A stretch of DNA of 34,077 nt from a virus. Location of the stretch: positions 1 through 34,077 of IMG/VR virus record IMGVR_UViG_3300044675_006624, one strand, 5' to 3'. Of this stretch, positions 265-32,257 are shown in pieces (position 1 is the stretch's first letter; every line of letters begins with the position of its first letter). A model generated the notes under the pieces. It saw nothing but the letters and a program-made list of their open reading frames with translations, did no database searches and was not told the origin of the DNA. Position numbers and translations under genes: made by a program.

Positions 265-849
265 TTATTGACTGAAGTTAATTTCATATTTAGGATTAGC
301 TGTTATCCACATAGGAATTGAATATCTAGCGTTTAAGATTTTGTCCACATGATGTTCATACTCTTCTCCCTGAGATGGGAACACAATTGCCTCAAAGGCT
401 GCTGGTGTGTAAGAGTATCCTAAGCTATCAAACTTTATTGTTCCATCATTTTCGTTAGAGTTAAGATATAAAACAAAGCTATATTTAAAATGACCATTGT
501 CGTTTGGCCCTGCGTCAAGATGCCTATTTACAATTGCACCAGGAAACTGCTTTGCTAAATGAAAAGAAGTAACGTATAGCTCCTCTGGATCATCATAAGC
601 AAGCTTTATTCGCTCAACAACATCCTTAAATAGAATACGTAGTTCTTCGTGTATGTCAGGTATTTTTTCAAGAGTTGGGTTTGAGTCTGTCCAAACCTCA
701 TCAACTCCGAATCTCCACACACACCTATTGGGGTTTCCCATTTCAGAATAAGTGCTAAAATTATTAATGTTGAGGTCAATATAGTTGATATAAAAATCTG
801 CTTCTCGTGGTGTAATAATGTTTGGAAGTATTTTAATGTTTTTACTCAT
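265..849 (-). CDS. Fe(II)/2-oxoglutarate dioxygenase, prolyl-4-hydroxylase-like, 194 aa
   Basis: A double-stranded beta-helix oxygenase of the P4H type. The sequence shows the HxD pair (H110, D112 in NRHLDAG), a YLN strand (128-130), a distal His (H166 or H167) and the 2-oxoglutarate-binding Arg (R175 in NARYSIP). The family hydroxylates peptidyl proline or related substrates using O2, Fe(II) and 2-oxoglutarate. I chose ATG 849, preceded at some distance by AGAAAGG, over an in-frame TTG at 861. Transcription comes from the palindromic promoter shared with the GT8-like gene at 966, which hints at joint expression of a hydroxylase and a glycosyltransferase. The substrate is unknown. Confidence 0.85.
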   Translation of the reverse strand: MSKNIKILPNIITPREADFYINYIDLNINNFSTYSEMGNPNRCVWRFGVDEVWTDSNPTLEKIPDIHEELRILFKDVVERIKLAYDDPEELYVTSFHLAKQFPGAIVNRHLDAGPNDNGHFKYSFVLYLNSNENDGTIKFDSLGYSYTPAAFEAIVFPSQGEEYEHHVDKILNARYSIPMWITANPKYEINFSQ

Positions 850-854
850 AACGC

Positions 855-889
855 TTGACAACCTTTCTGCTTTTGATATAATTATATCA
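855..889. promoter_or_regulatory. Divergent promoter built on a 16-bp palindrome
   Basis: TGATATAATTATATCA (874-889) is a perfect palindrome and gives an extended -10 (TGA-TATAAT) on both strands. On + the -35 TTGACA (855-860) is 16 bases upstream of TATAAT 877-882. On - the -35 is weaker (TTCCCA-like). It drives the glycosyltransferase at 966 rightward and the dioxygenase ending at 265 leftward. Confidence 0.7.
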
Positions 890-891
890 GT

Positions 892-940
892 AAGTTGCCT
901 TTATGGGAAGGTGGAATTGGTGGTCCTGTAAAGGCAACTT
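892..940 (+). promoter_or_regulatory. Leader hairpin with 12-bp perfect stem
   Basis: AAGTTGCCTTTA (892-903) pairs exactly with TAAAGGCAACTT (929-940) across a 25-base G-rich loop. From the + promoter the transcript would begin near 889, so the hairpin occupies the 5' leader just ahead of the AGAGGG ribosome-binding site and ATG 966. There is no T-tract, so a simple terminator is unlikely. It may be a translational or stability element. Confidence 0.55.
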
Positions 941-965
941 GCTATTTAATCAGAGGGTATTGTAA

Positions 966-1790
966 ATGTCAAATTACTGCATAGTCTATAGCATCCATTC
1001 AGACAATACAGATATAAATAATCTATTACAGTGGAGAGAGCTGCTTTTTTCTTTAAAGACATTAAGATCTGTAAACAAAGAGGTAAGCGTCAAGGTATAT
1101 GTATCACCACCAGATCGTGTTAACAACATAACTATGTTTCCAGACATGACAAATCTAGAGATTATTCCAATTCAAAACCCCAACAATAACTATTCTATTC
1201 TGGGAAAAGAAGTTGCAATGTGGCTTGAAATGAAATATAATGCTGCATTTCATACACTTAGCACATCTTCTTATGACAAAGTTTTAATGATAGATCCAGA
1301 TACTATTTACTACAAGAATCCAAATAGTCTTATTGAGAAATACCAACAGGATGCTTTTTATTCTGCCCCAGATGACAATCAAGAGCTATTTAACTATCTA
1401 AAGACAGACAAAAGATATATGAACGATGGCGTTGTTATCGTTCCAAGGTGGTCCCTTGAGATTAAAGATGAACTATTGCTCGCTAGAAATAGCTTTACTA
1501 ATGATATAGTAAATAATAATAAAGACACTTTTAACGATGAGGATATTTTTTGGAGGAATAGCGTTGGTTGGGCATCACCTCAGTATGGCATTTATGAATA
1601 TTTATTAAATGCTAATAGACCAGTAAACTATTTTGATTCTAAAGATGTGGCTAATTTATCAGACTGGAATTCAGAACTACCCCCAATTATTTTGCACTAC
1701 TGGCATGTTGGATATCAAGATCACCTACCTAAAGAGTATTGGCCAGACATTGATGACACGCATATGACAAAGATTCACGAAAAAGTTTGA
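966..1790 (+). CDS. GT8-like glycosyltransferase, 274 aa
   Basis: GT-A fold enzyme expected to transfer a sugar from a nucleotide-sugar donor, with the metal bound through DPD (residues 110-112, in VLMIDPDTIYY). Conserved features include an N-terminal CIVYSIHSD strand, MNDGVV near 152 and a C-terminal HYWH segment. It is clearly paralogous to the - strand gene at 15680-16486, which shares IVYS, SPP, DxDT, MNDG and a late HY motif. The leader has a strong hairpin and an AGAGGG ribosome-binding site. A promoter and three tRNA genes follow directly. Acceptor unknown; a GT8-type assignment rests on motif style and is moderate. Confidence 0.75.
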   Translation: MSNYCIVYSIHSDNTDINNLLQWRELLFSLKTLRSVNKEVSVKVYVSPPDRVNNITMFPDMTNLEIIPIQNPNNNYSILGKEVAMWLEMKYNAAFHTLSTSSYDKVLMIDPDTIYYKNPNSLIEKYQQDAFYSAPDDNQELFNYLKTDKRYMNDGVVIVPRWSLEIKDELLLARNSFTNDIVNNNKDTFNDEDIFWRNSVGWASPQYGIYEYLLNANRPVNYFDSKDVANLSDWNSELPPIILHYWHVGYQDHLPKEYWPDIDDTHMTKIHEKV

Positions 1791-1815
1791 CAATTAAGTA
1801 GCTATAATATATAAT
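1787..1815 (+). promoter_or_regulatory. Promoter of the tRNA cluster
   Basis: TTGACA (1787-1792), a 17-base spacer and TATAAT (1810-1815) form a perfect consensus sigma-A/70 promoter. The -35 overlaps the stop codon of the glycosyltransferase gene, and the tRNA-Asn starts 12 bases downstream of the -10. Confidence 0.85.
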
Positions 1816-1827
1816 TAAAACACAAAA

Positions 1828-1899
1828 TGACCATTAGCTCAACGGCAGAGCAGAGAGCTGTTAACTCTAAGGTTCCTGGTTCGAATCCAGGATGGTCAG
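1828..1899 (+). tRNA. tRNA-Asn (GTT)
   Basis: Cloverleaf: seven-pair acceptor stem TGACCAT/ATGGTCA, D stem GCTC/GAGC, anticodon loop CTGTTAA (anticodon GTT, Asn), T arm CCTGG-TTCGAAT-CCAGG, and discriminator G as usual for tRNA-Asn. No CCA is encoded. The anticodon stem has one mismatch at its outer end. First of three tandem tRNAs. Confidence 0.93.
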
Positions 1900-1952
1900 C
1901 TAATGGTGTGGTCCATACCACTCTCACGGGTAGGAGATAAAAATGGACACTA

Positions 1953-2026
1953 GGTTCTGTAGCTCAGTTGGTTAGAGCACTACCCTGTCACGGTAGGGGT
2001 CGCCAGTTCAAGTCTGGTCAGAATCG
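1953..2026 (+). tRNA. tRNA-Asp (GTC)
   Basis: Acceptor GGTTCTG pairs with CAGAATC (one G-T pair). The anticodon arm CTACC-CTGTCAC-GGTAG gives anticodon GTC (Asp), the T loop is TTCAAGT, and the discriminator is G. About 53 bases separate it from tRNA-Asn, with a small hairpin GTGGT/ACCAC between. Confidence 0.93.
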
Positions 2027-2030
2027 CATT

Positions 2031-2103
2031 GCCTCTATAGCTCATCTGGTAGAGCGACGCACTTGTAATGCGTAGGTGACGGGTTCAAGTCCTGTTGGAG
2101 GCT
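2031..2103 (+). tRNA. tRNA-Thr (TGT)
   Basis: Acceptor GCCTCTA/TGGAGGC, anticodon arm ACGCA-CTTGTAA-TGCGT giving anticodon TGT (Thr), T loop TTCAAGT. It begins four bases after tRNA-Asp, so the two are probably processed from one transcript. Confidence 0.93.
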
Positions 2104-2106
2104 CTA

Positions 2107-2115
2107 TGGTATAAT
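2107..2115 (+). promoter_or_regulatory. Extended -10 promoter for the oxygenase pair
   Basis: TGG-TATAAT lies just after tRNA-Thr. It shows that the in-frame ATG at 2114 is inside the promoter and cannot be the start of the next gene, whose ATG at 2144 is correctly placed. Confidence 0.55.
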
Positions 2116-2143
2116 GTTATTAACATATAGATTGGCTAATATT

Positions 2144-2698
2144 ATGAAACTATCTGTGCATCACGATAACATATATGAATTTTCTGATTTTTTGTCTGTT
2201 GATGAATTAAAAAGCTTAAGAGACATGATCGATGGTTTTCCTGCAGACCAAGAATCCTGGACAAGATTAGATTCTCCACCATTTTGGATTGGCAAAGTAT
2301 ATGTATATGGAAACAATGAGCCATTAATATCGATTGAGCAAAAACTAGAATCTCTTTTTAATACCTGTAGTGAAACAGTTTTTAATTCTATTATTGATTT
2401 TCAAAGAACTTTGCCAACTGATGAACCAATGGAAATGCATAGAGATATTATTGGTCACTCAGACTTAAAATATGGTCTTGTTCTTTATCTAAACGATGAC
2501 TATCTTGGTGGAGAAATATCCTACCCAGACTATAGCCTAGACATAAAGCCCACTGCTGGAATGGTAGTTGTTCACGAAGCGAACGTCTTACACGGAGTAT
2601 TACCAATTCATGGGGGAAGTCCAAGATACATTTTAACTAATTTTGTAAGATGTCCCCACGATCATGGTCAATGTGAATTAAAAATAAAAACTATTTAG
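2144..2698 (+). CDS. Fe(II)/2-oxoglutarate dioxygenase, prolyl-4-hydroxylase-like, 184 aa
   Basis: A complete P4H-type catalytic core: HRD (H99, D101), the YLN strand, YLGGEISYP (120-128, the classic GGE-FP signature), distal H150 in NVLHGV and R161 for 2-oxoglutarate. The family hydroxylates protein prolines and related side chains. Start 2144 is preferred because an upstream in-frame ATG at 2114 lies in the -10 box. The ribosome-binding site is weak. It is followed after ten bases by a TauD-like oxygenase, then by two virion-like genes in the same direction, which makes those products candidate substrates. A conserved Cys/His-rich tail (CPHDHGQC) follows the fold. Confidence 0.88.
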   Translation: MKLSVHHDNIYEFSDFLSVDELKSLRDMIDGFPADQESWTRLDSPPFWIGKVYVYGNNEPLISIEQKLESLFNTCSETVFNSIIDFQRTLPTDEPMEMHRDIIGHSDLKYGLVLYLNDDYLGGEISYPDYSLDIKPTAGMVVVHEANVLHGVLPIHGGSPRYILTNFVRCPHDHGQCELKIKTI

Positions 2699-2708
2699 AG
2701 AGAGATTT

Positions 2709-3536
2709 ATGCCATATACACAGTCAATGGAATATCCAGGTATTCAAGAAGTAAAAGCAAACTTAGATTTTTATAAAGAAAAGTTTATAAATGATACCAT
2801 TTTAGTATTTAGAAATGCTCACCTATCTTTTGAAGAACACGAAGAGCTTCAGCGAGTTATGGGTGATGTTTTTGGATGGTACCCAAACACCACTGCTGGC
2901 AAGATTAGCAGATACATTGAAGATCACGAAAAAAATAAAGACAGAACAGAAACAAATAAAGACGAAGTGGTCTTGGGATGGCATGTCGAACATCCGTACT
3001 ACGACAATCCAATTGTTGCAGGATTATGGAACATGCTTACTTTTAATATTGAAAAGGGTCATGGTAATACCTTGTTTATGGACACAGCTAGGGTATATGA
3101 AATGCTTTCAGAAAGCGATAAAGAATTTTTAGAAAAATGTGTAGTCAACTCTTATTCGTATGGATATATGGATCGCATGTTTACTACAAAAGCAATCAAG
3201 CCTCACTGGTTAACTAAAGAACCACTTATTAGATTTAGCTTAGATAACATTAGAGAAGGATGGCATGACCTACATTCTTTCGATGGCAGAAAGCCAACCA
3301 GCGAAGAGTCTGAAAGATATCTAAAAGTTGCAACCTGGATTGTTGATGAAATAAATAATAATGAAGACTTAAGGATTATCCACGAGTGGCAAGAAGGAGA
3401 CGTTATTATTCCAGACCTTCACAAACTAGCTCATGCTGTTATGGGTGGCTTTAGCCCAAAGAATAGAAGGTTTACTGGGCTATGGTCTTATGAAAAAGAT
3501 ACAAGTGTGTATCCAGAAGTTTATGTTGAAAACTAA
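2709..3536 (+). CDS. TauD/clavaminate-synthase-like Fe(II)/2OG oxygenase, 275 aa
   Basis: A TauD/TfdA-fold oxygenase. The metal pair is HxE rather than HxD (H92, E94 in GWHVEHPY), as known for clavaminate synthase, AsnO and VioC-type amino-acid hydroxylases. The GNTLFMDT strand (119-126), the GDVIIPD turn with distal His near H242, and the late NRRFTG Arg complete the site. By family knowledge it could hydroxylate an amino-acid side chain, perhaps on a peptide. The start has AGAGAGA six bases upstream. It is co-transcribed with the P4H-like gene in front. Confidence 0.85.
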   Translation: MPYTQSMEYPGIQEVKANLDFYKEKFINDTILVFRNAHLSFEEHEELQRVMGDVFGWYPNTTAGKISRYIEDHEKNKDRTETNKDEVVLGWHVEHPYYDNPIVAGLWNMLTFNIEKGHGNTLFMDTARVYEMLSESDKEFLEKCVVNSYSYGYMDRMFTTKAIKPHWLTKEPLIRFSLDNIREGWHDLHSFDGRKPTSEESERYLKVATWIVDEINNNEDLRIIHEWQEGDVIIPDLHKLAHAVMGGFSPKNRRFTGLWSYEKDTSVYPEVYVEN

Positions 3537-3545
3537 TGGTATACT
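3537..3545 (+). promoter_or_regulatory. Extended -10 promoter for a leaderless virion-like gene
   Basis: TGG-TATACT ends six bases before ATG 3552 and no Shine-Dalgarno is present, so the mRNA should start at or beside the ATG. Confidence 0.6.
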
Positions 3546-3551
3546 ATATAC

Positions 3552-3833
3552 ATGGCTGAACACGCATTAATTACTCTATCTAATACTACTGCTCTTAGAT
3601 TGACACCGCTTGGAACACATTCTGGAATGGACTTTACCTTGCAAAATGTAAACGCTTCTGGTTACATTTATATTGGTGGCGAAGGGGTTACTTCAGAAAA
3701 TTATGGATTTAGGATTCTTCCTAATCACTCTATCTCTTTTGAGCTACCACCAAAAGATGCTTTGTTTGCTATCTCTTCTGTAGATGCAATGAAGCTTGCA
3801 AAGATTACCATGGGGCTAGAGGCTCAAGACTAA
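3552..3833 (+). CDS. Small beta-rich protein, probable virion component, 93 aa
   Basis: No enzyme motifs. The protein alternates short strands with Gly/Asn turns (DFTLQNVNASGYIYIGGEGV), a pattern seen in small phage head-decoration or tail proteins. It sits as a leaderless gene between dioxygenases and a second beta-rich gene, which it overlaps by one base (TAATG). The structural role is inferred from composition and position. It lacks a signal peptide and membrane segments. Confidence 0.55.
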   Translation: MAEHALITLSNTTALRLTPLGTHSGMDFTLQNVNASGYIYIGGEGVTSENYGFRILPNHSISFELPPKDALFAISSVDAMKLAKITMGLEAQD

Positions 3834-4279
3834 TGGCTAGGTTTACCCATCCAGCATTTGGCAACACTGATGGTTTAACAACCGAAATTAAAACATATTC
3901 ACCAGTATGGTCTGGTACAGGTTTAGCATTTACTGGAACCCCTGCAACTGGATCATATGTTAAGATTGGTAATCTTATTCAATTGCAAATTGATGTTACT
4001 TTTACAAACGTTAGTAACTTTGGAACTGGTCAATATTCTTTAACGCTACCCTTCCCATCTAAATTTCACACAGATGTTTATGGTGGTTCCGTTCATGACG
4101 TAGTTAACCAGGGAATTGATCATTACAGTCTTAAAGGACATCTAAGTCCAGGTAGCACAACCTTTACTCTGTGGGATATGGCAAGTGCATCTAAGGATGA
4201 ACCATTTGACCATAACTCACCATTTGTACTAAGCACAGCAGATAAGTTTCATATGTCCTTTACATACATCTGTGAATAG
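3833..4279 (+). CDS. Beta-rich tail-fibre/receptor-binding-like protein, 148 aa
   Basis: The N-terminal half carries the pattern YSPVWSGTGLAFTGTPATG followed by YVKIGNLIQLQIDVTF and YSLTLPF, a beta-sandwich module often found at the C-terminal ends of phage tail and fibre proteins. Here it stands alone. Start ATG 3833 overlaps the previous stop, so the two are translationally coupled. The protein is Thr/Ser/Gly-rich and would be a reasonable target for the neighbouring hydroxylases and glycosyltransferases, but that is inference. Exact virion role unknown. Confidence 0.6.
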   Translation: MARFTHPAFGNTDGLTTEIKTYSPVWSGTGLAFTGTPATGSYVKIGNLIQLQIDVTFTNVSNFGTGQYSLTLPFPSKFHTDVYGGSVHDVVNQGIDHYSLKGHLSPGSTTFTLWDMASASKDEPFDHNSPFVLSTADKFHMSFTYICE

Positions 4280-4287
4280 TGTATAAT
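4259..4287 (+). promoter_or_regulatory. Promoter for tRNA-Glu and the exonuclease-nrdH pair
   Basis: TTTACA (4259-4264), 17-base spacer, TATAAT (4282-4287). It lies across the end of the virion-like gene and nine bases before tRNA-Glu. Confidence 0.75.
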
Positions 4288-4295
4288 ATTTAAAT

Positions 4296-4368
4296 GGTCC
4301 GTTAGGGTAGCGGTCATCCCACCTGCCTTTCATGCAGGGAATCACCAGTTCGAATCTGGTACGGACTG
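4296..4368 (+). tRNA. tRNA-Glu (TTC)
   Basis: Acceptor GGTCCGT/ACGGACT (terminal G-T pair), anticodon arm CCTGC-CTTTCAT-GCAGG giving anticodon TTC (Glu), T arm ACCAG-TTCGAAT-CTGGT, discriminator G. No encoded CCA. It precedes the exonuclease gene on the same transcript. Confidence 0.92.
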
Positions 4369-4387
4369 CTTTACAGAAAGAAGTAAC

Positions 4388-4957
4388 ATGATTACATACA
4401 TTGGCCTAGATGGCGAGATGTCTAGTGCAGACATTTCTACTGGCGGAAAGCTAATTCAAATTGGAATGGCAAAGATTGTAGATGGCAAAATGACATCTAT
4501 TGCCAGCATGCTAAATCCAGGCGGAATGGAATGGTCTGAAGAAGCTGAGGCAGTGCACGAGTTTACTCAAGACTATATTGAAAAGTTTGGGCTAGACCCA
4601 TCCGTTGTTGATCAAGACCTTGCTAATTGGGTGGGTAAAGGATTAGAGCGTGGAAACACCATTGCGGTTGGATTTAACGTTGGATCTTTTGATATGCCAT
4701 TTGTAAAGCAATCACTGCCAATTTTATTTAGTAAGTTTTCCAGACGCACTGTTGATCTAAACGCACTAATCTTTTCCTTATCTGATACTGACAAAGAATT
4801 TCAAAGGATTAAGGCTAACGCAAAGCGATATGCTGAGCAGCAGATGAATAACATGTTTGATGGATTTAAAAACAGGCAACACGATGCAGAATATGATTCC
4901 GTAATGGCATTGTATTGTTTTGAATACATTCGTAGTCTTATGAAAAAGGAGAAGTAA
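4388..4957 (+). CDS. DnaQ-like DEDDh 3'-5' exonuclease, 189 aa
   Basis: RNase H-fold exonuclease with all expected acidic motifs: Exo I DGE (residues 8-10), Exo II GFNVGSFDMPF with the catalytic Asp near residue 102, and Exo III H...D in RQHDAEYDSVMAL (about 162-168). It removes nucleotides from 3' ends and may proofread or process DNA or RNA. There is no polymerase domain. It begins after an AGAAAG ribosome-binding site and ends by overlapping the nrdH start (TAATG), so the pair is coupled. Confidence 0.85.
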   Translation: MITYIGLDGEMSSADISTGGKLIQIGMAKIVDGKMTSIASMLNPGGMEWSEEAEAVHEFTQDYIEKFGLDPSVVDQDLANWVGKGLERGNTIAVGFNVGSFDMPFVKQSLPILFSKFSRRTVDLNALIFSLSDTDKEFQRIKANAKRYAEQQMNNMFDGFKNRQHDAEYDSVMALYCFEYIRSLMKKEK

Positions 4958-5178
4958 TGACAACAGTATACACAAAGCCGTCATGCGTTCAGTGTGACAT
5001 GACAAAGAGGTACATGGATAAGCTTGGTATTGAGTATGATACCGTTGACATTACTGAAGATACAGAAGCCTTCGATATGATTGTTGGTCTTGGCTTTAAG
5101 TCAGCACCAGTAGTTATATCAGATGCTGGTAGCTGGGCAGGTTTTCAGCCTGAAAAGATCAACCTTTTGGCTGCTTGA
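4957..5178 (+). CDS. nrdH: NrdH-type glutaredoxin, 73 aa
   Basis: A thioredoxin-fold redoxin with CVQC active site (residues 10-13), a SAPVV cis-Pro loop and the C-terminal WAGFQPEKI that matches the W-SGF-P signature of NrdH proteins. It supplies electrons to class Ib ribonucleotide reductase. It overlaps the exonuclease stop by one base. It lies about 24 kb from nrdIEF at 29190-32663, so the usual nrdHIEF operon is split. The promoter of groES begins inside its last codon. Confidence 0.88.
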   Translation: MTTVYTKPSCVQCDMTKRYMDKLGIEYDTVDITEDTEAFDMIVGLGFKSAPVVISDAGSWAGFQPEKINLLAA

Positions 5179-5203
5179 CTTTTCTTTACTAAATTAGTAT
5201 AAT
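5175..5203 (+). promoter_or_regulatory. Promoter of the groES operon
   Basis: TTGACT (5175-5180), a 17-base spacer and TATAAT (5198-5203). A GAGGGAG ribosome-binding site and GTG start follow 25 bases later. Confidence 0.8.
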
Positions 5204-5228
5204 AAATATATAACAGAGGGAGAACTTA

Positions 5229-5522
5229 GTGATTAAACCACTAGAAGATAAGGTTGTCGTAAAACCTATCATTGAAACAGAAAAGACTAGCTCTGCTGGT
5301 CTAATTATTGCAGCACTTGAAAAGGAACGTCCTACTGAGGCAATCGTTGTTGCTGTTGGTCCAGGTACCGTTTTTGGAAACGGAGACAAGATGACCATTG
5401 ACCTTAAAGTTGGAGACAAGATTGTTTATTCTAAGTATCAGGGTACAGAGATTACGGTAGATGGTGAGGATCTTTTGATTCTTGCATACCGTGACATTTT
5501 TGCAGTCTTGGAGGATCAGTAA
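5229..5522 (+). CDS. groES: GroES-like co-chaperonin (cpn10), 97 aa
   Basis: Full-length cpn10: the N-terminal IKPLEDKVVVKPI strand, a mobile loop (about residues 17-35), the VAVGPG turn and the VGDKIVYSKYQGTEI strand, close to the normal 95-100 residues. It should form a heptameric cap on the host GroEL and help fold phage proteins, probably the capsid. No groEL is present. Start is GTG 5229 behind GAGGGAG. The mobile loop (EKTSSAGLIIAALEKE) resembles host cpn10s. The next gene overlaps at TAATG. Confidence 0.92.
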   Translation: MIKPLEDKVVVKPIIETEKTSSAGLIIAALEKERPTEAIVVAVGPGTVFGNGDKMTIDLKVGDKIVYSKYQGTEITVDGEDLLILAYRDIFAVLEDQ

Positions 5523-5710
5523 TGTCTATACCAGATATTGATTGGTCTCTTGAATACCAGCGTGGATACGATGATGCACTAACAAAGATGATTAATAAGT
5601 TTCAGCAAGAGTACAACGAGACTGCTGCTCAAGATCCACACTTTGCCTTTTATTCAAGATATGTTGTTGACACTCTACAAAAAGAGCTTGGTCCAAAGAT
5701 AGAGGATTAG
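5522..5710 (+). CDS. Hypothetical protein, 62 aa
   Basis: A mostly helical, acidic small protein with several aromatic residues and no recognised motif or membrane segment. The ATG overlaps the groES stop (TAATG), so expression is tied to groES. Function unknown. Confidence 0.65.
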   Translation: MSIPDIDWSLEYQRGYDDALTKMINKFQQEYNETAAQDPHFAFYSRYVVDTLQKELGPKIED

Positions 5711-5712
5711 TG

Positions 5713-5859
5713 ATGGAACAAACATGGATTGACATCTTGTCTGACCCTCATCACATTCTTGCTGACTTTATAATGAACGTTGGCTTTGAAATAGCTTTTG
5801 CCTGGCTTACATATTTGATCATTATTAAGATTATTTATAATCGACAAAGGAAAAAATAA
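5713..5859 (+). CDS. Single-span small membrane protein, 48 aa
   Basis: Residues 23-42 form a hydrophobic helix (aromatic and Ile-rich), followed by a basic tail (YNRQRKK) that predicts a cytoplasmic C-terminus. The ATG lies two bases after the previous stop in the groES operon. This could be a small envelope or lysis-accessory protein, but no family is recognised. Confidence 0.6.
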   Translation: MEQTWIDILSDPHHILADFIMNVGFEIAFAWLTYLIIIKIIYNRQRKK

Positions 5860-5861
5860 GC

Positions 5862-6017
5862 TTGAAGGATTTTGAAGCTGAGCTAGCAAGCGTTAGTAAA
5901 AAACTTGATCAAATTGAAGCTGAAATTGTAATGAATCAAGAAGCTGTAGAATCTATAGAAATCAGACTTCGCTTGCTTAAAACAGAGCTAGACTTTGAAT
6001 CTGATAAAATGGTATAA
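5862..6017 (+). CDS. Coiled-coil small protein, 51 aa, TTG start
   Basis: The frame begins with TTG 5862 behind AAAGGA and ends with the TAA that overlaps the next -10 box. It encodes an almost entirely helical heptad-rich chain (VSKKLDQIEAEI, LRLLKTELDFES), so a dimeric or trimeric coiled coil is likely. It is last in the groES operon. Function unknown; support is the ribosome-binding site, tight spacing and heptad pattern. Confidence 0.5.
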   Translation: MKDFEAELASVSKKLDQIEAEIVMNQEAVESIEIRLRLLKTELDFESDKMV

Positions 6018-6018
6018 T
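6010..6018 (+). promoter_or_regulatory. Extended -10 promoter for the JmjC/cupin-like cluster
   Basis: TGG-TATAAT with a possible TAGACT -35 eighteen bases upstream. The downstream gene has an AGAAAGAG ribosome-binding site, so this transcript carries a leader. Confidence 0.6.
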
Positions 6019-6043
6019 ATATAGGCAAACAGAAAGAGTTGGT

Positions 6044-6622
6044 ATGAACTTAAAAGACTTGGCACTGAAACCAACAGCCACGTATATTCAAGGGTACGCA
6101 ACAGAATACCCAGATAAATGGGATTATTTTATTAATTTTGTTGACTACTGCAATAAAGTAGATTGGGTACAGCAAGACGAAGCAGAGCGTAAACGATTTA
6201 TTGAGAGTGGCAGATTACGTAAAGGCTTGTTGCAAATTTGGGGTTACTTTACAATGTTTGCAGAAACTCCATCAGAATACCCAGACATTATGGTCAACAT
6301 AGACAGTCTAAGCAATAAAATTGAATCTGAATATGGAGAAAAACCTAGGTCTTCTTTTGCAATTGTTAACTTTAGCAATGCTGAGAATGTAACAAATAGG
6401 CACAATGACCTAACCCATAACTTCTATGTACAATGTATTGGCTCAGTTATTTGGAAAATTTATGAATCAGTTGGCTCTACAGAGTACAAAGAGTATGAAT
6501 TAAATCCTGGGGATGCAATTTTTGTTCCAGCTGGAGTTTCTCATGAGGTAGTAGCCTTACAACCACGTGCTGCAATTACTGTGGCATTTAATGGGTTAGA
6601 TGAAAAGGTTGCAGGAGAATAA
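6044..6622 (+). CDS. JmjC/cupin-like Fe(II) oxygenase, 192 aa
   Basis: A cupin-type beta-helix resembling JmjC/Cupin_8 hydroxylases: metal pair H120-x-D122 (RHND), then NPGDAIFVPAGVSHEVV with distal H167. Such enzymes hydroxylate side chains of proteins. It is paralogous to the gene at 7126, with catalytic residues at identical positions (120, 122, and 167 versus 168). The next gene starts in its stop codon (TAATG). Substrate unknown; JmjC-like is a fold-level call. Confidence 0.72.
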   Translation: MNLKDLALKPTATYIQGYATEYPDKWDYFINFVDYCNKVDWVQQDEAERKRFIESGRLRKGLLQIWGYFTMFAETPSEYPDIMVNIDSLSNKIESEYGEKPRSSFAIVNFSNAENVTNRHNDLTHNFYVQCIGSVIWKIYESVGSTEYKEYELNPGDAIFVPAGVSHEVVALQPRAAITVAFNGLDEKVAGE

Positions 6623-7113
6623 TGTATCCATTAATTTTAGAATACGATAATGCAATTGATCAAGAAGATCTAGATACTATGCTTGATATAGCTAAGTCAT
6701 CTACTAGCTTAGATTCATCAACTACAGATAACATCGAAGAAATTGGTCAATTTTGGCTAGGTAACAGACTCATGATTACTGAAACAGCTTTACCATCATG
6801 GCATGAAAAAATTGTAAGCTTGAGATCAGAGATTGATTTCTTTAATATTACAGAACCAAGAAAAATTCAAAAGCTTAATAATGGCAATTTTTTGGGGCCA
6901 CTAATTGACATGGAAAACGTTGAGTTAATTAGACATGGTGCAATTCTTTTTTTGAATGAGCCTTATGATTCTGAAATATATTTTCCAAGAATTAATTATA
7001 AAGTAAAAGCAAAAGCTAACAGGCTTGTGGTTTATGGCGGAGATCAAGAATATGTTATTCGTGGACCAGAAGGCAAAGACTGTTTGTATTTTTCAACCGT
7101 GTTTATGAGCTAG
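6622..7113 (+). CDS. Degenerate P4H-like protein lacking the metal triad, 163 aa
   Basis: The C-terminal half aligns by eye with the P4H-like enzyme at 2144: AILFLNEPYDSEIYFP matches its YLN...GGEISYP block, and LVVYGGDQEYVIRGPEG matches its VVVHEANVLHG block. In that alignment the first His is Leu94 (only D96 of HxD remains), the distal His is Tyr144, and the 2OG Arg is not conserved. It is therefore likely catalytically dead, perhaps a partner or scaffold of the flanking JmjC/cupin-like enzymes. It overlaps the preceding stop by one base. Confidence 0.6.
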   Translation: MYPLILEYDNAIDQEDLDTMLDIAKSSTSLDSSTTDNIEEIGQFWLGNRLMITETALPSWHEKIVSLRSEIDFFNITEPRKIQKLNNGNFLGPLIDMENVELIRHGAILFLNEPYDSEIYFPRINYKVKAKANRLVVYGGDQEYVIRGPEGKDCLYFSTVFMS

Positions 7114-7125
7114 AAAGAGGATAGA

Positions 7126-7683
7126 ATGTTTACTACTGAAGAAATAAAAGATGCAATTGCAAACCCTAAATTAGTTATTAAAAAGAAACTTTTTTTAAAT
7201 ACTCCTAGTTGGGAAAGCTTTATTGGCCATCTTAATCATGAGTTTTACAATGATACATACCCACCAATGACTGATGATGAGCCATACAATCCAGATGATA
7301 CCGTTATTAATGGAGTAAACATTCGTGAGCATTTTTACTTAATGAATGCTGCAGCTGATAATCCAAAGTTTTTTCCTCAGTTTTTTGACGTACAGGATGA
7401 ACTAAACAAAGTAATGGAAACAAAATACTTTGGATCTTTTACCTTAATTAATTTTGTAGGTGGCGAGCGAGCAATAAATGTTCACTGTGATCCAAGGCAC
7501 TCGTTTTATTGGCAAACTCATGGCACATCAATATGGCAAGTTTTTTCAGAAAATGATCTTGAAAATCCACTAGAAGAGCATGAGATAGCTCAAGGTGATA
7601 TGATCTTTGTTCCACACGGCATATACCATAGCGTTGTTGCCCCAGAGCCAAGAACGGCTATTTCATTTATGTATGAGATGTAG
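7126..7683 (+). CDS. JmjC/cupin-like Fe(II) oxygenase, 185 aa
   Basis: Paralogue of the 6044 gene with the same beta-helix core: H120-C-D122 (NVHCDPRH), then AQGDMIFVPHGIYHSVV with distal H168 and a closing RTAIS strand. A protein hydroxylase role follows from the family, not from a recognised substrate. AGAGGA precedes the ATG. It ends eight bases from the convergent GT60-like gene. The three-gene block 6044-7683 looks like one operon. Confidence 0.72.
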   Translation: MFTTEEIKDAIANPKLVIKKKLFLNTPSWESFIGHLNHEFYNDTYPPMTDDEPYNPDDTVINGVNIREHFYLMNAAADNPKFFPQFFDVQDELNKVMETKYFGSFTLINFVGGERAINVHCDPRHSFYWQTHGTSIWQVFSENDLENPLEEHEIAQGDMIFVPHGIYHSVVAPEPRTAISFMYEM

Positions 7684-7690
7684 TAAAAAA

Positions 7691-8656
7691 CTATTCAAAT
7701 ACTGGAATTTCACTAAGATCATATTCTTCTCTTGGAATAACAAATTTTTTAAACCACTCAAGATGAGCATCGTAAATTTTTTGATCAAATACCCCATCTT
7801 CAATTCCTTCAAAAAAGTCATCTAAAAATTTATAAGAGACATCTACAAAACCGTCTAGCTTATCAGCAAACATTTTTTTATATTTTTTATATTTGGGGTT
7901 GTCCTGTTCCATAAAAAATGAAAATCTTCTATTTTGAAATACACCCATGTAGTCATGAAACACAAAATCTTGTGGGGGAACAACTATTTTGATGTTATCA
8001 GCATACAACTTGATTGACATGTATGGTTCTTCGCCATTATATAAAATTTTGGGACTATACTTATATTTATAAAAAATTTCAGAGTCTCCAAAAGCAAAGC
8101 CGCCGCAAAAATAATTTTTTATTTCTCCAAACTCATCACCTTTATAGGGCCATGGTCTGCCAGCATATCTGCTGGGAGAATCCTTTTCTTTATCTTGAAG
8201 AATTTGCATTGACGTTGGTATTTTGGTGATGTTCAAAAAATATTTTTTGTCTCTGCAATCATAGTTGTTTGGATACACTGAATAAATAAGCTTTCCAAAG
8301 TGTGACTTTGATAGCTCATATTTTTTTATAATTTCTGTATCCCAGCTATCTATAAATCTTGTGTGACTGTCTACTTGAAGATAATATTTGTGGACTTTTG
8401 GCAGCAAATGTTTTTGGGTTTGAAATCTTGCATGCCCCACGCCTTTAGCTTGATCCAGATAAACATACTCATATTTTAATTTAGTGCCAAACTTATTTGT
8501 AATCTTTAAAACTTTGTCTCTAAGGCATTTCTCATCTTGAAGAAAAACTGAAATAGTTATATTTTCTGGATGATCCGCCTTTTCGCAAAGATCTTTAATT
8601 GTGGGCAAAAACTCAGTATCAGCTAGTGATGAGATAGAAACAAATATAGTATTCAT
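7691..8656 (-). CDS. GT60-like (Skp1 GlcNAc-transferase family) glycosyltransferase, 321 aa
   Basis: The N-terminus TIFVSISSLADTEFLPT, the KGVGHARFQTQ segment (71-81) and the QVDSHTRF box with D96-S97-H98 are hallmarks of the GlcNAc-transferase family that includes the Skp1 hydroxyproline GlcNAc-transferase (GT60), where DxH replaces the usual DxD. It should add GlcNAc or a related sugar to a protein or glycan. The mRNA is predicted leaderless: TGG-TATAAT ends six bases before ATG 8656. A paralogue lies at 12303-13214. The C-terminal 70 residues are family-specific and unassigned. Confidence 0.8.
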   Translation of the reverse strand: MNTIFVSISSLADTEFLPTIKDLCEKADHPENITISVFLQDEKCLRDKVLKITNKFGTKLKYEYVYLDQAKGVGHARFQTQKHLLPKVHKYYLQVDSHTRFIDSWDTEIIKKYELSKSHFGKLIYSVYPNNYDCRDKKYFLNITKIPTSMQILQDKEKDSPSRYAGRPWPYKGDEFGEIKNYFCGGFAFGDSEIFYKYKYSPKILYNGEEPYMSIKLYADNIKIVVPPQDFVFHDYMGVFQNRRFSFFMEQDNPKYKKYKKMFADKLDGFVDVSYKFLDDFFEGIEDGVFDQKIYDAHLEWFKKFVIPREEYDLSEIPVFE

Positions 8657-8662
8657 TAATTA

Positions 8663-8701
8663 ATTATACCATTGACTAGGCAATACCCCATAGAATATGA
8701 T
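8663..8701. promoter_or_regulatory. Divergent promoter pair between GT60-like gene and glycosyltransferase operon
   Basis: On - an extended -10 (TGG-TATAAT, 8671-8663) abuts the leaderless start at 8656. On + TTGACT (8672-8677), an 18-base spacer and TATGAT (8696-8701) precede an AGAAAGAG ribosome-binding site and ATG 8731. Confidence 0.65.
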
Positions 8702-8730
8702 AAAATAGAGTAATATACAGAAAGAGATCA

Positions 8731-9675
8731 ATGGCCAATATAGCTTTTTTAGGAAATTTTAGATTTGACTTTAGTTCAGAAACTCATCACGTAAAAAGCC
8801 TAGAGTCTTTGGGACATAGTGTGGTAAAGCTGCAAGAAAATAGAGTGAGTAGCCAAGACGTCTATCATGTAGCTTCTAAAAGCGATTTGTTTATCTGGGT
8901 TCACACGCATGGCTGGAAGACACCTGGAAATTTTCCAATGGAAAAGGTTTTAGAAAAACTAAGGGCTAGGGGAATCCCAAGCATGACATATCATCTGGAC
9001 CTATGGCTTGGCTTAGAAAGACAAAAAGATTTAGACTCTGATCCAATCTATAAGCACATTGATCATTTCTTTACGGTAGATAGCAAAATGGCAGATTGGT
9101 TTAACGAAAACACAAATGTAAAAGGTCACTATATGCCTGCAGGAGTGTTTGGTGAAGAGGCATACTACAAGCCCATAACAAAGAGACTTGATTTAGCTTT
9201 TGTTGGCAGCAAAGGATATCACCCTGAGTGGCCATATAGACCGCAACTGATTGATTGGTTATCAGAAAACTATGGGCAAAGATTTAGACACTATGGCAAT
9301 GGTGGAGTTAAAGCAATTAGGGGTGATGAGTTAAACACGCTATATGGAACTACAAAAATAGTTGTTGGAGATACGTTATGCCCAAACTTTAACTACCCAA
9401 GCTATTGGTCAGATAGGGTTTATGAAACCTTGGGCCGTGGAGGATTTATTATTCATCCATATATTCAGGGAATGGAAAAAGAATTTACAGATAAAGAACA
9501 TTTAGTATTTTACGAATACAATAACTTTGACCAGCTAAAAGAATTAATTGACTACTACTTAGAGCATGACGAAGAACGTGAAAAAATTAGGTTAGCTGGT
9601 CATAATCTAGTTAAGAATAACTATACATATACGCATAGGTGGCAAAGTATCCTTAAGGAGCTTGGCGTTGAGTGA
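8731..9675 (+). CDS. GT-B glycosyltransferase, CgeB-like, 314 aa
   Basis: Two Rossmann-like halves: an N-terminal domain beginning IAFLGNFRFDFSSETHHVKSLESLGH and a C-terminal Glyco_trans_1_2/CgeB-type domain with KRLDLAFVGSKGYHP, SDRVYETLGRGGFIIHP and the helical tail ending in the HRW segment. It should transfer a sugar from a nucleotide-sugar. First gene of a four-glycosyltransferase operon with overlapping frames (8731-12316). It has a good AGAAAGAG ribosome-binding site. Acceptor unknown. Confidence 0.82.
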   Translation: MANIAFLGNFRFDFSSETHHVKSLESLGHSVVKLQENRVSSQDVYHVASKSDLFIWVHTHGWKTPGNFPMEKVLEKLRARGIPSMTYHLDLWLGLERQKDLDSDPIYKHIDHFFTVDSKMADWFNENTNVKGHYMPAGVFGEEAYYKPITKRLDLAFVGSKGYHPEWPYRPQLIDWLSENYGQRFRHYGNGGVKAIRGDELNTLYGTTKIVVGDTLCPNFNYPSYWSDRVYETLGRGGFIIHPYIQGMEKEFTDKEHLVFYEYNNFDQLKELIDYYLEHDEEREKIRLAGHNLVKNNYTYTHRWQSILKELGVE

Positions 9676-10525
9676 TATAAAAGCATACTTGTTTAGTATA
9701 GGAAACAGAGCATTTGCTAGTCATAAAGATGACTTTGGTTTTGTGAGGCAAGCCTTTGTCAGAAATAAAATTGAGGTTATTGAGACTTTGTCCTTGCCAG
9801 AGGTTGATAAAGCATTTGTAGTTTTGTCTGGATCTGACTTGACTGGATTAGAAGAATTTGTGTCTGAAAGGCTACAGGTTATAAAAAAAATAGTTTTGTT
9901 TATTACTTCAGACGAGTGCGGAACTTTTAATGTTGACAAAATAAAGCATCCTGATATTAAAATTTGGAAGCAATATCCATATCCAAAACACAAAAAATAC
10001 TTTAAGATGCCTTTAGGTGCTCCCATAATGCTTGAAAAAAACATGCCAGAGTATAGTCAAAAAGATATTGATTTATTTTTTGCTGGCCAAATTACTCATC
10101 AAAGAAGGCAAGAGCTTGGTGCTGTAATGGATTCTTTAAATACAGAACACTATTTGCCCACTACTGGATTTATGCAAGGCAGTCCTTCTAAAGATTACTA
10201 TGCAAAAGTTGCTAAAGCAAAAGTAGTCCCTGCACCTGCAGGCTCAGCTACAATAGATTCATTTAGATTTTATGAAGCCCTAGAGCTATTGGCTATGCCA
10301 ATTGGAGATACAAAAAATTCTTCTGGAGAAGACTTTGATTATTGGGACTATGTGTTTCAACAAAGCGTTCCATTTCCTAAAACAAATGATTGGAACTCTT
10401 TACCATCTATGGTTGATCAAATATCATCTGAGTACCCTGCAAATATGCACAAGGTTGTTGCCTGGTGGATTAAGTACAAGAGAGATTTCTGCAATAAAAT
10501 TATGGAGCAAATAAATGAACATTAA
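9668..10525 (+). CDS. Exostosin/GT-B-like glycosyltransferase, 285 aa, TTG start
   Basis: The C-terminal half has the pattern DLFFAGQITHQRR, then SKDYYAKVAKAKVVPAPAG and DSFRFYEALELLAMPI, typical of exostosin-like and related GT-B donor-binding domains. The N-terminal half is a poorly conserved Rossmann domain. I start it at TTG 9668, seven bases after AAGGAG (9655-9660), rather than at TTG 9662, which is too close. It overlaps the preceding gene by eight bases and the next by eleven. Confidence 0.7.
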   Translation: MSDIKAYLFSIGNRAFASHKDDFGFVRQAFVRNKIEVIETLSLPEVDKAFVVLSGSDLTGLEEFVSERLQVIKKIVLFITSDECGTFNVDKIKHPDIKIWKQYPYPKHKKYFKMPLGAPIMLEKNMPEYSQKDIDLFFAGQITHQRRQELGAVMDSLNTEHYLPTTGFMQGSPSKDYYAKVAKAKVVPAPAGSATIDSFRFYEALELLAMPIGDTKNSSGEDFDYWDYVFQQSVPFPKTNDWNSLPSMVDQISSEYPANMHKVVAWWIKYKRDFCNKIMEQINEH

Positions 10526-11276
10526 TGATATTACAATTGTTATGCCAACATCAGTACTACCAAGTCACCCAGATACTGGAATTCTTGATGAGGTAATTAG
10601 AAGCATTAGGCAATACTTTCCAGACAATGAGATTATTTTGCAAGTTGATGGGCTTCGAGAAGAACAGTCCCATCGCAAAGATCAATACGATGAGTATAAG
10701 AACAGGGTACTTTGGAAGTGTTTGCACGAATATAAAAATGTGCTGCCAATAATGTTTGATGAGCATTCTCATCAGTCTACTATGATGCAACAAAGTCTTC
10801 ACCTAATTACTACCCCATTAATGTTTTATATTGAAAGTGACATAGCTTTGAGAGATAATCTTGATATTGATTGGCAAAAAGCTTTGGATATGCTTGACTC
10901 AAAAACAGCATACACTATAAGATTTTACACATTTGAGACACAGGTTGTGCCAGCCCATGAACCACTCATGATGGATAGAGACGGAGACTTTGTTCAGACC
11001 TTCCAGTGGAGTCAACAACCACATATTACATATGTATCTTACTACAGAAATATGGTGTTGCCAAACACTAACTACAAATCTTTTATTGAAGATACCTTTT
11101 ATGGTAAAGTCTTTGCTGATTGCTACGAAACCAAAGAGGCATGGGATAGTCATAGGCTGTGGCTTTATAATCCACTAAACAAAGATGATATTAGGATTGT
11201 TAATAATCTTGATGGAAGAAAGAATCTAAGAAAGTTTACCTCTGACGATGAAGCCTGGGGATTAACTGAGGCATGA
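10515..11276 (+). CDS. GT2-like GT-A glycosyltransferase, 253 aa
   Basis: An N-terminal ITIVMPTSVLPSHPDTGILDEVIRSI strand-helix and the PLMFYIESDIAL box (ExD near residues 114-116) indicate a GT-A nucleotide-sugar transferase. A GAGCAA ribosome-binding region and ATG 10515 overlap the end of the previous gene. The ATGA junction at its end couples it to the next. It belongs to the four-gene glycosyltransferase operon. The specific family is uncertain. Confidence 0.72.
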   Translation: MNINDITIVMPTSVLPSHPDTGILDEVIRSIRQYFPDNEIILQVDGLREEQSHRKDQYDEYKNRVLWKCLHEYKNVLPIMFDEHSHQSTMMQQSLHLITTPLMFYIESDIALRDNLDIDWQKALDMLDSKTAYTIRFYTFETQVVPAHEPLMMDRDGDFVQTFQWSQQPHITYVSYYRNMVLPNTNYKSFIEDTFYGKVFADCYETKEAWDSHRLWLYNPLNKDDIRIVNNLDGRKNLRKFTSDDEAWGLTEA

Positions 11277-12316
11277 GACTAGGAATAATTGCAAGATCTG
11301 ATAAGACTGGCTTGGGCAACCAAACCTATGAGCTTACCAAAATGCTTAACCCCACAAAGGTTTTACTTATTAACTCTACTCACTTTAACCAAAACCAGCA
11401 GTTTCCAGAGCTGTATGAGGGCTACAACGTCATGGAAACTAGCAGGGGATTTGCCACAGATAAAGAGGCTGCGGCCTTCCTAGAGGGCTTAGACGCCGTT
11501 TTAAGCTGTGAAACCTTCTATAGCACAACCTTAATTGATTTAGCTAAAAAGATGGGCATCAAAACGCTGCTACAGTATAACTTTGAATTTTTAGATAACC
11601 TCAAGCATCCAGATTGGCCATTGCCAGACGTCCTAATTTCTCCCAGCTTTTGGAATTTTGACCTTGTATATGATAAGTTTAGCAGTAAGTGTAAGGTTGT
11701 GCATTTGCCACCACCAGTTTCTGAAGAAAGGTTTGCCAAAGCAAGATCAATTAACCAAAATGGTAACTTAAATAAAATACTTCATGTTGCTGGTAAAATT
11801 GCTGATGCAGATAGAAACGGAACTAATACCGTAATGGAAATGTTAAAGTATTCTACTGCAAACTATGAATTAGTTATTAAGGTGCAAAATCCAGAACGCT
11901 TGGAAGATATTTCCAGGGACCCTCGTCTAAGCATAGATACCTCCAACCCAAATAGCAATATGGATCTTTACTCTGGATTTGATGCAATGGTTCTTCCACG
12001 CAGATATGCTGGACTTTGTTTGCCAATGAATGAGGCATTGATGAGTGGGCTTCCTGTATTTATGACAGACGTATCCCCAAACAATTTTATTTTGCCAAAA
12101 GATTGGCTAATAGACTCAAAGCAAATAGGAAAGATTAAGACTAGATCTATATTACCAGTTTATGAGGCAAACCCAAGAAAGCTTGCTGAAGCGGTTGATA
12201 ATTTTATTAATGACAAAAACAAGAGTATAGAAAAAGAAAAAGCTTTTATGCTTGGGCAAGAGCTTTTTTCTGTTGAAGCTTTAAGAGAAAAATATATTAA
12301 TCTTATTTGTGAGTAG
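11273..12316 (+). CDS. GT4-like glycosyltransferase, 347 aa
   Basis: A GT-B enzyme: N-terminal GLGNQTYELTKML nucleotide-binding-style loop, a central linker near 160-175, and the C-terminal MVLPRRYAGLCLPMNEALMSGLPVFM block with the E-x7-E-like donor motif of GT4 enzymes. It closes the + strand operon with an ATGA overlap to the gene before. Its 3' end overlaps the convergent GT60-like gene by 14 bases. Sugar and acceptor unknown. Confidence 0.82.
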   Translation: MRLGIIARSDKTGLGNQTYELTKMLNPTKVLLINSTHFNQNQQFPELYEGYNVMETSRGFATDKEAAAFLEGLDAVLSCETFYSTTLIDLAKKMGIKTLLQYNFEFLDNLKHPDWPLPDVLISPSFWNFDLVYDKFSSKCKVVHLPPPVSEERFAKARSINQNGNLNKILHVAGKIADADRNGTNTVMEMLKYSTANYELVIKVQNPERLEDISRDPRLSIDTSNPNSNMDLYSGFDAMVLPRRYAGLCLPMNEALMSGLPVFMTDVSPNNFILPKDWLIDSKQIGKIKTRSILPVYEANPRKLAEAVDNFINDKNKSIEKEKAFMLGQELFSVEALREKYINLICE

Positions 12317-13214
12317 AGTAAAATTCCTTAAATGAAAATCCTACCATACTTTCATATGCCTCTATTGTGCGATTAGCTCCTAAGCCAAACTGGCCTTGCT
12401 CAATGCCACACAAAATACTCTTTTGTTTTTCATATGAAATTTTTTGTAGCTCACTCCAAGAGATGGGCCTGATGTTATTATCGTTCCAAACCTTTTTAAA
12501 TCCTCCACGATGATAAAAGTGGTAGGCTAATACAATTGACGGAGAATATATATCCCACCCTCTAGTCCAGGCTCTTGCAGCAAAGCAAATCTCTTCTCCA
12601 AAGAAACTTATTTCTGGATCATACGGAACCTCTTTTATAATTTCTCCGTAGGTGAATACAAAGCCAGCTAGTATTGTGTTTGATGGTTCTGGGGTGGTCC
12701 TCTGGGGATCATCAAACTCTACACGCTCTGCTCCCCACTCTTTAGATTTTCTAAGTATTACCTTTTGTTTAGTAGGATGCACCGCCCAGTCTCCAACCTG
12801 CTTAGTATGCAAGACTGTGGTTTTTCCCTCTAGGCTATATGGAGCAGGGAAGGACGAAAGAATTACCTTATTGCTTGTGAGTAACTGGGCATCTTTTAGC
12901 TGTTTAATTGCAAGTCTGTCCCAATTTTCAACAAACCTCATATGAGAATCTATTTGTAAAAAATATGTTTCTTCTTGATATAGAGACATGGCTTTTGATC
13001 TTGCAAATCCAACGCCCCTAGCATCTCTTGGGTGCATTGATATTAGGGAGTATTTAGGTAAGAATGAGAGGTCTGGTCTTTCACGATCCGTACCCTGGTA
13101 AACAATACCAAAATGCAAACGCTCTGGCTTCTCTGCTTTTTCAACCATATCAATTAAGGTTGACTGTAATTCTGGATCCCTATAGCTTGCTACTGAAATA
13201 AAAATAGTTGACAT
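12303..13214 (-). CDS. GT60-like (Skp1 GlcNAc-transferase family) glycosyltransferase, 303 aa
   Basis: The closer of two family members to the canonical form: TIFISVASYRDPELQSTL at the N-terminus, RDARGVGFARS (63-73), FLQIDSHMRF with D89-S90-H91, and AGFVFTYGE plus FFGEEICFAARAWTRGWDIYSP later. GT60 enzymes cap hydroxyproline on Skp1 in Dictyostelium. The real ATG is 13214, since the in-frame ATG at 13223 overlaps the TATAAT box (13227-13222). Seven bases separate box and ATG, so the mRNA is probably leaderless. A terminator for the upstream holin-like gene ends just ahead. Confidence 0.85.
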   Translation of the reverse strand: MSTIFISVASYRDPELQSTLIDMVEKAEKPERLHFGIVYQGTDRERPDLSFLPKYSLISMHPRDARGVGFARSKAMSLYQEETYFLQIDSHMRFVENWDRLAIKQLKDAQLLTSNKVILSSFPAPYSLEGKTTVLHTKQVGDWAVHPTKQKVILRKSKEWGAERVEFDDPQRTTPEPSNTILAGFVFTYGEIIKEVPYDPEISFFGEEICFAARAWTRGWDIYSPSIVLAYHFYHRGGFKKVWNDNNIRPISWSELQKISYEKQKSILCGIEQGQFGLGANRTIEAYESMVGFSFKEFYSTHK

Positions 13215-13221
13215 ATATACC

Positions 13222-13230
13222 ATTATAGCA
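13222..13230 (-). promoter_or_regulatory. Extended -10 promoter for leaderless GT60-like gene
   Basis: TGC-TATAAT, seven bases before ATG 13214, overlapping the T-tract end of the preceding terminator. No Shine-Dalgarno sequence. Confidence 0.6.
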
Positions 13231-24704: not shown

Positions 24705-24705
24705 A

Positions 24706-29189: not shown

Positions 29190-32240
<3,051 letters not shown>

Positions 32241-32257
<17 letters not shown>

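Follow-up and report, generated by a model that had tools for sequence, protein, structure and literature searches.

Prolyl hydroxylase-like oxygenases and GT60 glycosyltransferases of tailed phages: candidate modifiers of proline- and threonine-rich tail-fibre stalks

Prolyl hydroxylation followed by glycosylation through an enzyme of family GT60 has been described for Skp1 in Dictyostelium and Toxoplasma (PMC11570480). In phages, the glycosyltransferases of pelagimyophages were proposed to rebuild host surface glycans (PMC7029224), and those of the mycobacteriophage Maravista were suggested to decorate virion proteins (PMC11256854). Here we analysed the IMG/VR virus record IMGVR_UViG_3300044675_006624 (34,077 bases, the whole of which we call the window; it is probably an incomplete record of a partial phage contig), in which 2-oxoglutarate (2OG) oxygenases resembling prolyl 4-hydroxylases (P4H) occur together with GT60 glycosyltransferases. 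To our knowledge, prolyl hydroxylation coupled to GT60 is known only from protists. From protein families, predicted folds, gene order and enrichment in related phages we infer that P4H oxygenases and GT60 modify the Pro/Thr-repeat stalks of the tail fibres of these phages, a reading to which we assign a probability of roughly 0.6.

In a first pass, 26 long relatives were sampled by ribonucleotide reductase (RNR), blind to GT60 and P4H, and searched whole. Sixteen encode P4H, several in multiple copies (eight in G020), and several of these P4H genes follow the gene of a Pro-rich repeat protein inside a tail-fibre cluster. In G029, from the window's own phage group, the genes of a 277-aa protein consisting mostly of TPTPTP, a 79-aa Cys protein and P4H stand in that order; the same single genome holds the window's glycosyltransferase cluster, including an orthologue of its second GT60 (GT60b). 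A second arrangement, with P4H genes immediately after the gene of a PPFF-repeat fibre, is found in G020 (FFPPFFPFFPP repeats) and in G017. Scanning viral contigs with the module-class P4H only gave 80 loci across which gene order is markedly constant: fibre genes, a tail protein bearing extended repeats of the (TP)n, (AP)n or (FFPF)n type, a Cys protein of ~79 aa, P4H, a second 2OG-like or radical S-adenosylmethionine (SAM) gene, GT60 and sometimes a nucleoside diphosphate (NDP)-sugar epimerase. After dereplication at 90% identity, the counts were compared with random genes from the same loci (2000 draws, uncorrected for the ancestry that the loci share). A Pro-rich tail-type gene precedes P4H by no more than three genes in 39 of 43 loci (null mean 5.2, maximum 13), and a PF11397 GT60 follows it by no more than three genes in 17 of 46 loci (null mean 2.2, maximum 9). 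Where both ends are available, 14 of 41 loci have P4H and GT60 adjacent behind the Pro-rich protein. Co-occurrence in related phages, which the initial annotation had offered as a check on its idea of a hydroxylate-then-glycosylate pathway, was thus borne out, with both genes behind a Pro/Thr-repeat tail protein that the annotation had not named and that we regard as the candidate substrate.

Seven of the module GT60s were scored against PF11397, and each exceeds its cut-off of 21 bits (75.6-169.3 bits). Module GT60s are polyphyletic in the GT60 tree, so that recruitment to this position has taken place more than once, with different GT60s. At its N-terminal end, the repeat protein L249:5708-7714 resembles known tail and virion families, namely phrog_8780 (minor tail), phrog_16053 (tail fibre) and phrog_18179 (virion structural); a collagen-type tail fibre is encoded close by. 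Within a literature search of partial coverage, no report of P4H beside Pro-rich tail proteins was found. Two side observations may be added. Up to seven P4H-like genes stand nearly in tandem behind the FFPPFF fibre of G020 (L180/L181) and G017 (L182/L183), with DUF6065-like genes interleaved. In some modules a radical-SAM/SPASM protein, possibly a further peptide modification, stands beside GT60 (L225:8597-9532, by Pfam match; L197:11199-12203, called from its place and a Cys motif by eye).

According to this reading, the window would stem from a phage whose own proteins are modified post-translationally by enzymes that it encodes. P4H-type 2OG oxygenases would hydroxylate prolines of the stalk repeats, and GT60 would add a sugar to the Pro/Thr-rich repeats, an N-acetylhexosamine if the known activity of the family holds, so that both modifications would come to lie on the same stalk. 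An exported Pro-rich surface protein could perhaps be a second target. The benefit would probably be a stalk that is stiff, protease-resistant and variably decorated.

The window itself encodes the following 2OG oxygenases:
265 to 861, minus strand: P4H-like 2OG-Fe(II) oxygenase of 198 aa (PF13640, 32.1 bits, cut-off 27), HxD..H..R intact in the alignment
2114 to 2698, plus strand: P4H-like 2OG-Fe(II) oxygenase of 194 aa (PF13640, 35.1 bits, cut-off 27), HxD..H..R intact
2709 to 3536, plus strand: TauD/TfdA-type 2OG oxygenase of 275 aa (PF02668, E=1.4e-20)
6044 to 6622, plus strand: JmjC/cupin-like oxygenase of 192 aa (PF08007, JmjC_2, 27.1 bits, above cut-off)
6622 to 7113, plus strand: P4H paralogue of 163 aa without the HxD and H ligands (iterated P4H profile)
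7126 to 7683, plus strand: JmjC/cupin-like oxygenase of 185 aa (PF08007, JmjC_2, 33.3 bits, above cut-off)

Its glycosyltransferases and glycosyltransferase-like genes are:
966 to 1790, plus strand: GT-A-like glycosyltransferase of 274 aa (weak PF11051/PF03407, below cut-offs)
7691 to 8656, minus strand: GT60 glycosyltransferase A (GT60a) of 321 aa (PF11397, E=5e-26, 92.4 bits, cut-off 21)
8731 to 9675, plus strand: GT4-type glycosyltransferase (PF13524, E=3e-24)
9662 to 10525, plus strand: RXYLT1-C-like glycosyltransferase (PF24785, 20.4 bits, below cut-off)
10515 to 11276, plus strand: glycosyltransferase-like by context only, without a Pfam match, co-linear in the glycosyltransferase cluster of relatives
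11273 to 12316, plus strand: GT4-like glycosyltransferase (PF00534, 25.7 bits against a cut-off of 26.4), order conserved in relatives
12303 to 13223, minus strand: GT60 glycosyltransferase B (GT60b) of 306 aa (PF11397, E=1.8e-59, 202.5 bits, cut-off 21)
15680 to 16486, minus strand: GT-A-like glycosyltransferase, PF03407/PF01501-like (PF03407, 21.6 bits, cut-off 22)
25832 to 26533, minus strand: glycosyltransferase with DXD sugar-binding region (PF04488, E=6e-15)

The Pfam scan confirmed every oxygenase and GT60 family that had been claimed for the window: two P4H-like enzymes with an intact HxD...H...R, one TauD, two JmjC-type oxygenases and two GT60 homologues, the last count understating a glycosyltransferase content that extends to further genes. 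The P4H at 265-861 clusters with P4Hs of related phages, and GT60a is sister to the module GT60 of L300 (support 99/93). The P4H at 2114-2698 is followed in the same direction by TauD and the fibre-like genes VIR1 and VIR2, at gaps of 10, 15 and -1 bases, so that the four look like one operon headed by the P4H. These two genes and a Pro-rich one are:
3552 to 3833, plus strand: VIR1, a short conserved protein whose gene pairs with that of VIR2 and adjoins the VIR2 homologue in G026, G010, G002 and G004
3833 to 4279, plus strand: VIR2, a fibre-like protein (phrog_13144, of unknown function, E=2e-5)
27655 to 29049, minus strand, adjoining RNR: Pro-rich protein (17% Pro) with PEPTP/PTPTP repeats and a signal-peptide-like N-terminus

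VIR1 and VIR2 are read as fibre-type proteins because the VIR2 homologue in G002 bears a collagen (GXY) stretch at its N-terminus; judging from that homologue, VIR2 may have a role in the virion. The exported-looking Pro-rich protein, whose homologues also stand beside RNR in relatives, is a candidate substrate within the window. We rejected it as the sole substrate: relatives of the L116 type retain P4H, yet the corresponding protein in them is not rich in Pro.

The relative L005 keeps the gene order over most of 1.8-15.9 kb (from the tRNAs) at 77-98% nucleotide identity, about 92% in the longest stretch; the arrangement of the window is therefore not an accident of assembly. All tested genes have a ratio of non-synonymous to synonymous divergence (dN/dS) of 0.02-0.2 against L005, with 0.105 for the JmjC gene at 6044-6622 and 0.08 for that at 7126-7683. 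The P4H paralogue at 6622-7113, placed between the two JmjC genes, is conserved despite the loss of its ligands (dN/dS 0.17) and is likely a pseudoenzyme. Synonymous divergence is saturated in GT60a (dS 2.55), TauD (dS 1.55) and VIR2. Indeed, GT60a (window 7691-8656, L005 7230-8186) is 52% identical in amino acids, as against 91-97% for the neighbouring second JmjC and glycosyltransferase genes. GT60a, TauD and VIR2 thus look like exchanged alleles, as might be expected of surface-related functions.

Predicted structures are consistent with enzymes acting on proteins. The AlphaFold2 (AF2) model of the P4H at 2114-2698 (pLDDT 79.7) found mostly prolyl hydroxylases as its best PDB matches, among them those of B. 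anthracis and P. putida, the chlorovirus vCPH (5c5t), an algal enzyme with (Ser-Pro)5 (3gze) and PHD2, so that by fold it is a putative peptidyl-proline hydroxylase. For GT60b, a sequence search of the PDB gave zero matches; polypeptide GalNAc-transferases are the best structural matches of its AF2 model (pLDDT 90.3; TMq about 0.55-0.63, 11-18% identity). For both models, a protein would be a better-fitting substrate than DNA or a lipid.

The remaining gene content of the window includes lysis-type genes of the M23/amidase kind, four tRNAs and the following:
14479 to 14763: WhiB
29190 to 32257: class Ia RNR
21864 to 22799, minus strand: NDP-sugar epimerase-like enzyme (phrog_540, E=5e-64)
5229 to 5522: Cpn10, GroES-like (PF00166)

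WhiB suggests an actinobacterial host. The protein at 22876-23268 looks Hsp20-like by eye, and the gene at 4388-4957 is exonuclease-like with a weak PF00929 match. At 23333-24758 a DUF6065 protein adjoins a 247-aa protein that is GT25-like by eye and has no Pfam match; relatives carry a P4H/carbamoyltransferase run in the matching region.

The sugar would be carried by threonine, hydroxyproline or both, with threonine at least as likely. Within our reading, a quite possible variant, short of even odds, has the two enzymes working in parallel, with P4H acting on stalk prolines, GT60 on threonines of the same stalk, and hydroxyproline remaining free of sugar. A contrast was set up before testing because of G028, whose version of the tail locus encodes a TTTTAAP stalk and GT60 and lacks P4H. 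Tail loci were sampled by the ~79-aa gene alone (80 of several hundred anchor loci, 44 usable, six with poly-Thr stalks). P4H was present in 0 of the 6 poly-Thr modules versus 24 of the 38 others (Fisher p=0.0055), and GT60 in 5 of 6 versus 8 of 38 (Fisher p=0.0059). Moreover, in other virus groups, mostly without P4H, a T/P-rich gene stands directly upstream of a long GT60 in 10 of 47 cases (null 1.4, maximum 7), and among 80 bacterial GT60 loci the same holds for seven, with P4H within 6 kb in five of the 80. The association of GT60 with T/P-rich repeat proteins is therefore wider than its association with P4H, and the poly-Thr modules favour threonine as the acceptor and parallel over strictly sequential action; the GT60 model, closest to enzymes that transfer GalNAc to Thr/Ser of polypeptides, points the same way. 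On the other hand, the poly-Thr modules are just six and mutually related, the PPFF stalk of L335 is nearly free of Thr yet accompanied by GT60, and the characterised GT60, Skp1 Gnt1, acts on hydroxyproline. The bacterial GT60s directly behind T/P-rich repeat genes are those of L391, L403, L406, L409, L414, L422 and L446, from Pseudoduganella, Acidobacteria and Vicinamibacterales.

A strict sequence as in Skp1, in which P4H would make hydroxyproline and GT60 would place N-acetylglucosamine on that very residue, seems rather unlikely to us. The adjacency of both families behind a Pro-rich protein speaks for it, as does the fact that the same two steps are established on Skp1. However, P4H occurs in only 2 of 24 virus records sampled by GT60 (G029 and G032), and the 22 others imply that GT60 does not generally depend on hydroxyproline; GT60 without P4H is also the usual state of the poly-Thr modules. 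Three parts of the pathway idea in the initial annotation are not supported in the form given there: a general need of GT60 for hydroxyproline, a strict order of steps on one proline, and a joint placement of the two enzymes within the window. Its broader proposal stands in part: a protein-modification system finds support in the tail modules of relatives, and its working in this phage, as well as a strict order, is conjecture.

Several points weigh against stalk modification by P4H and GT60. Enzyme activity of all these proteins is a prediction. In the window, the P4Hs and GT60s lie kilobases apart and do not share an operon, the P4Hs are paralogues that belong to other, non-module classes also found in this phage group, and its 34,077 bases contain no repeat-stalk tail gene, possibly because the contig is partial. 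Among the 41 modules with both ends available, 23 have P4H with GT60 undetected, and in the sample taken by the ~79-aa gene P4H and GT60 show no positive association (5/23 versus 4/15). The shared ancestry of the loci, mentioned above, belongs here as well. Part of the pairs between P4H and a glycosyltransferase (class A) use an enzyme other than GT60 proper, and a cyanophage P4H of the same superfamily is placed among replication genes. Further searches gave nulls: the simple-threshold association of P4H with a Pro-rich stalk in the ~79-aa-gene sample was not significant (p=0.10), annotated stalk-P4H-GT60 modules were not seen in cyanophage P4H neighbourhoods, an independent test, and a viral scan with the window P4H at 2114-2698 as direct query yielded no relatives.

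Class A was recognised in the RNR relatives, where a glycosyltransferase stands immediately upstream of 9 of 64 dereplicated P4Hs (null mean 0.3). Most such partners fall in a separate clade on the border of GT2 and GT60. We rejected them as GT60-P4H pairs by Pfam and tree, as the first member scored below the GT60 cut-off, more members matched GT2, and the branch is long and separate. Collagen as the main P4H substrate was likewise set aside, its adjacency to P4H in the RNR-sampled set being no greater than chance; collagen genes are present in many of the same phages, and we keep collagen as a secondary candidate. Further genes of the class A locus encode DUF6065-like proteins, carbamoyltransferases and M23 peptidases. 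In G006 (L176:3433-12543) and relatives, for instance, the run reads DUF6065-like, GT2/GT60-borderline glycosyltransferase, P4H, carbamoyltransferase, P4H and M23 peptidases. A GT60 followed by a carbamoyl transferase is likewise present in Xanthomonas phage XacN1 (L010), and the cultured Synechococcus phage Sf-FS3 (L384) has eleven PF13640 matches, some adjoining the ~79-aa Cys gene and a sugar/glycosyltransferase cluster.

Alternatively, the oxygenases and glycosyltransferases might rebuild host surface glycans, thereby blocking superinfection or altering adsorption. The many glycosyltransferases of several families and the nucleotide-sugar epimerase in the window would suit such a role, which is also the view taken of the pelagimyophage enzymes (PMC7029224). 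We nevertheless hold it unlikely as the explanation of the system, since it leaves unexplained both why P4H and GT60 follow repeat tail proteins so closely and why the predicted fold of GT60b is like that of polypeptide glycosyltransferases; for part of the other glycosyltransferase genes it probably applies.

It is improbable that host proteins, for example EF-Tu, are the targets of the P4Hs, with the GT60s as unrelated cargo. The P4H model does match bacterial P4Hs for which EF-Tu is a known substrate (5v7y, 4iw3), and the cyanophage P4H among replication genes would fit, but the linkage of module-class P4H to Pro-rich tail genes (39 of 43) and the runs in which as many as seven P4Hs follow the gene of a PPFF fibre argue against it. 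Finally, hypermodification of DNA, with a Tet/JBP-like oxygenase hydroxylating bases that glycosyltransferases would then glycosylate, is very improbable: it draws on a PF12851 (Tet_JBP) match of 2114-2698 that fails its cut-off (17.8 against 34.9 bits), whereas prolyl hydroxylases rather than Tet or AlkB head the fold list, GT60b resembles polypeptide glycosyltransferases and the module neighbours are tail genes.

P4H-like oxygenases of phages are common, and as a rule no substrate is named for them; in the loci described here, a concrete class of candidate substrates adjoins them. If phages do hydroxylate and glycosylate their own stalks, this would link fibre stability, antigenic or receptor variation and the oxygen and 2OG supply of the infected cell. 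It would also place P4H-GT60 coupling in bacterial viruses, a possible source for the evolution of the pairing. More doubtful, and offered tentatively, is the wider proposition that widespread aquatic tailed phages build hydroxyproline- and Thr-rich glycoprotein stalks from a dedicated repeat stalk-P4H-GT60 locus, with O-glycosylation of hydroxyproline, in parallel to extensins, mucins and Skp1.

Compared with known systems, GT60b has its closest solved fold in the GT27 polypeptide GalNAc-transferases and differs from them in sequence family (GT60, PF11397). Virion glycosylation in mycobacteriophages is similar in that phage glycosyltransferases are thought to act on virion proteins; we know of no oxygenase step in that system. 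Giant viruses modify collagen, and mimivirus encodes a lysyl hydroxylase/glucosyltransferase for it. The likeness lies in a virus hydroxylase for repeat fibres of the virus, in the fold match to chlorovirus vCPH (5c5t) and in the collagen fibres of the same loci, whereas here the viruses are tailed phages and P4H is tied more closely to Pro-rich stalks than to collagen genes. The Skp1 system (PhyA and Gnt1/GT60) shares a P4H-fold oxygenase and a GT60 directed at one protein target; in the phages, the candidate target is a repeat-rich tail protein, GT60 also occurs without P4H, and a glycan on hydroxyproline is a proposal. The hydroxyproline-rich glycoproteins of algae and plants offer a further parallel, given that the P4H fold is shared and the (TP)n/(AP)n stalks match the Ser-Pro and Pro-rich repeat type of substrate, although here the setting is a bacterial virus and GT60 would take the place of the plant arabinosyl and galactosyl transferases.

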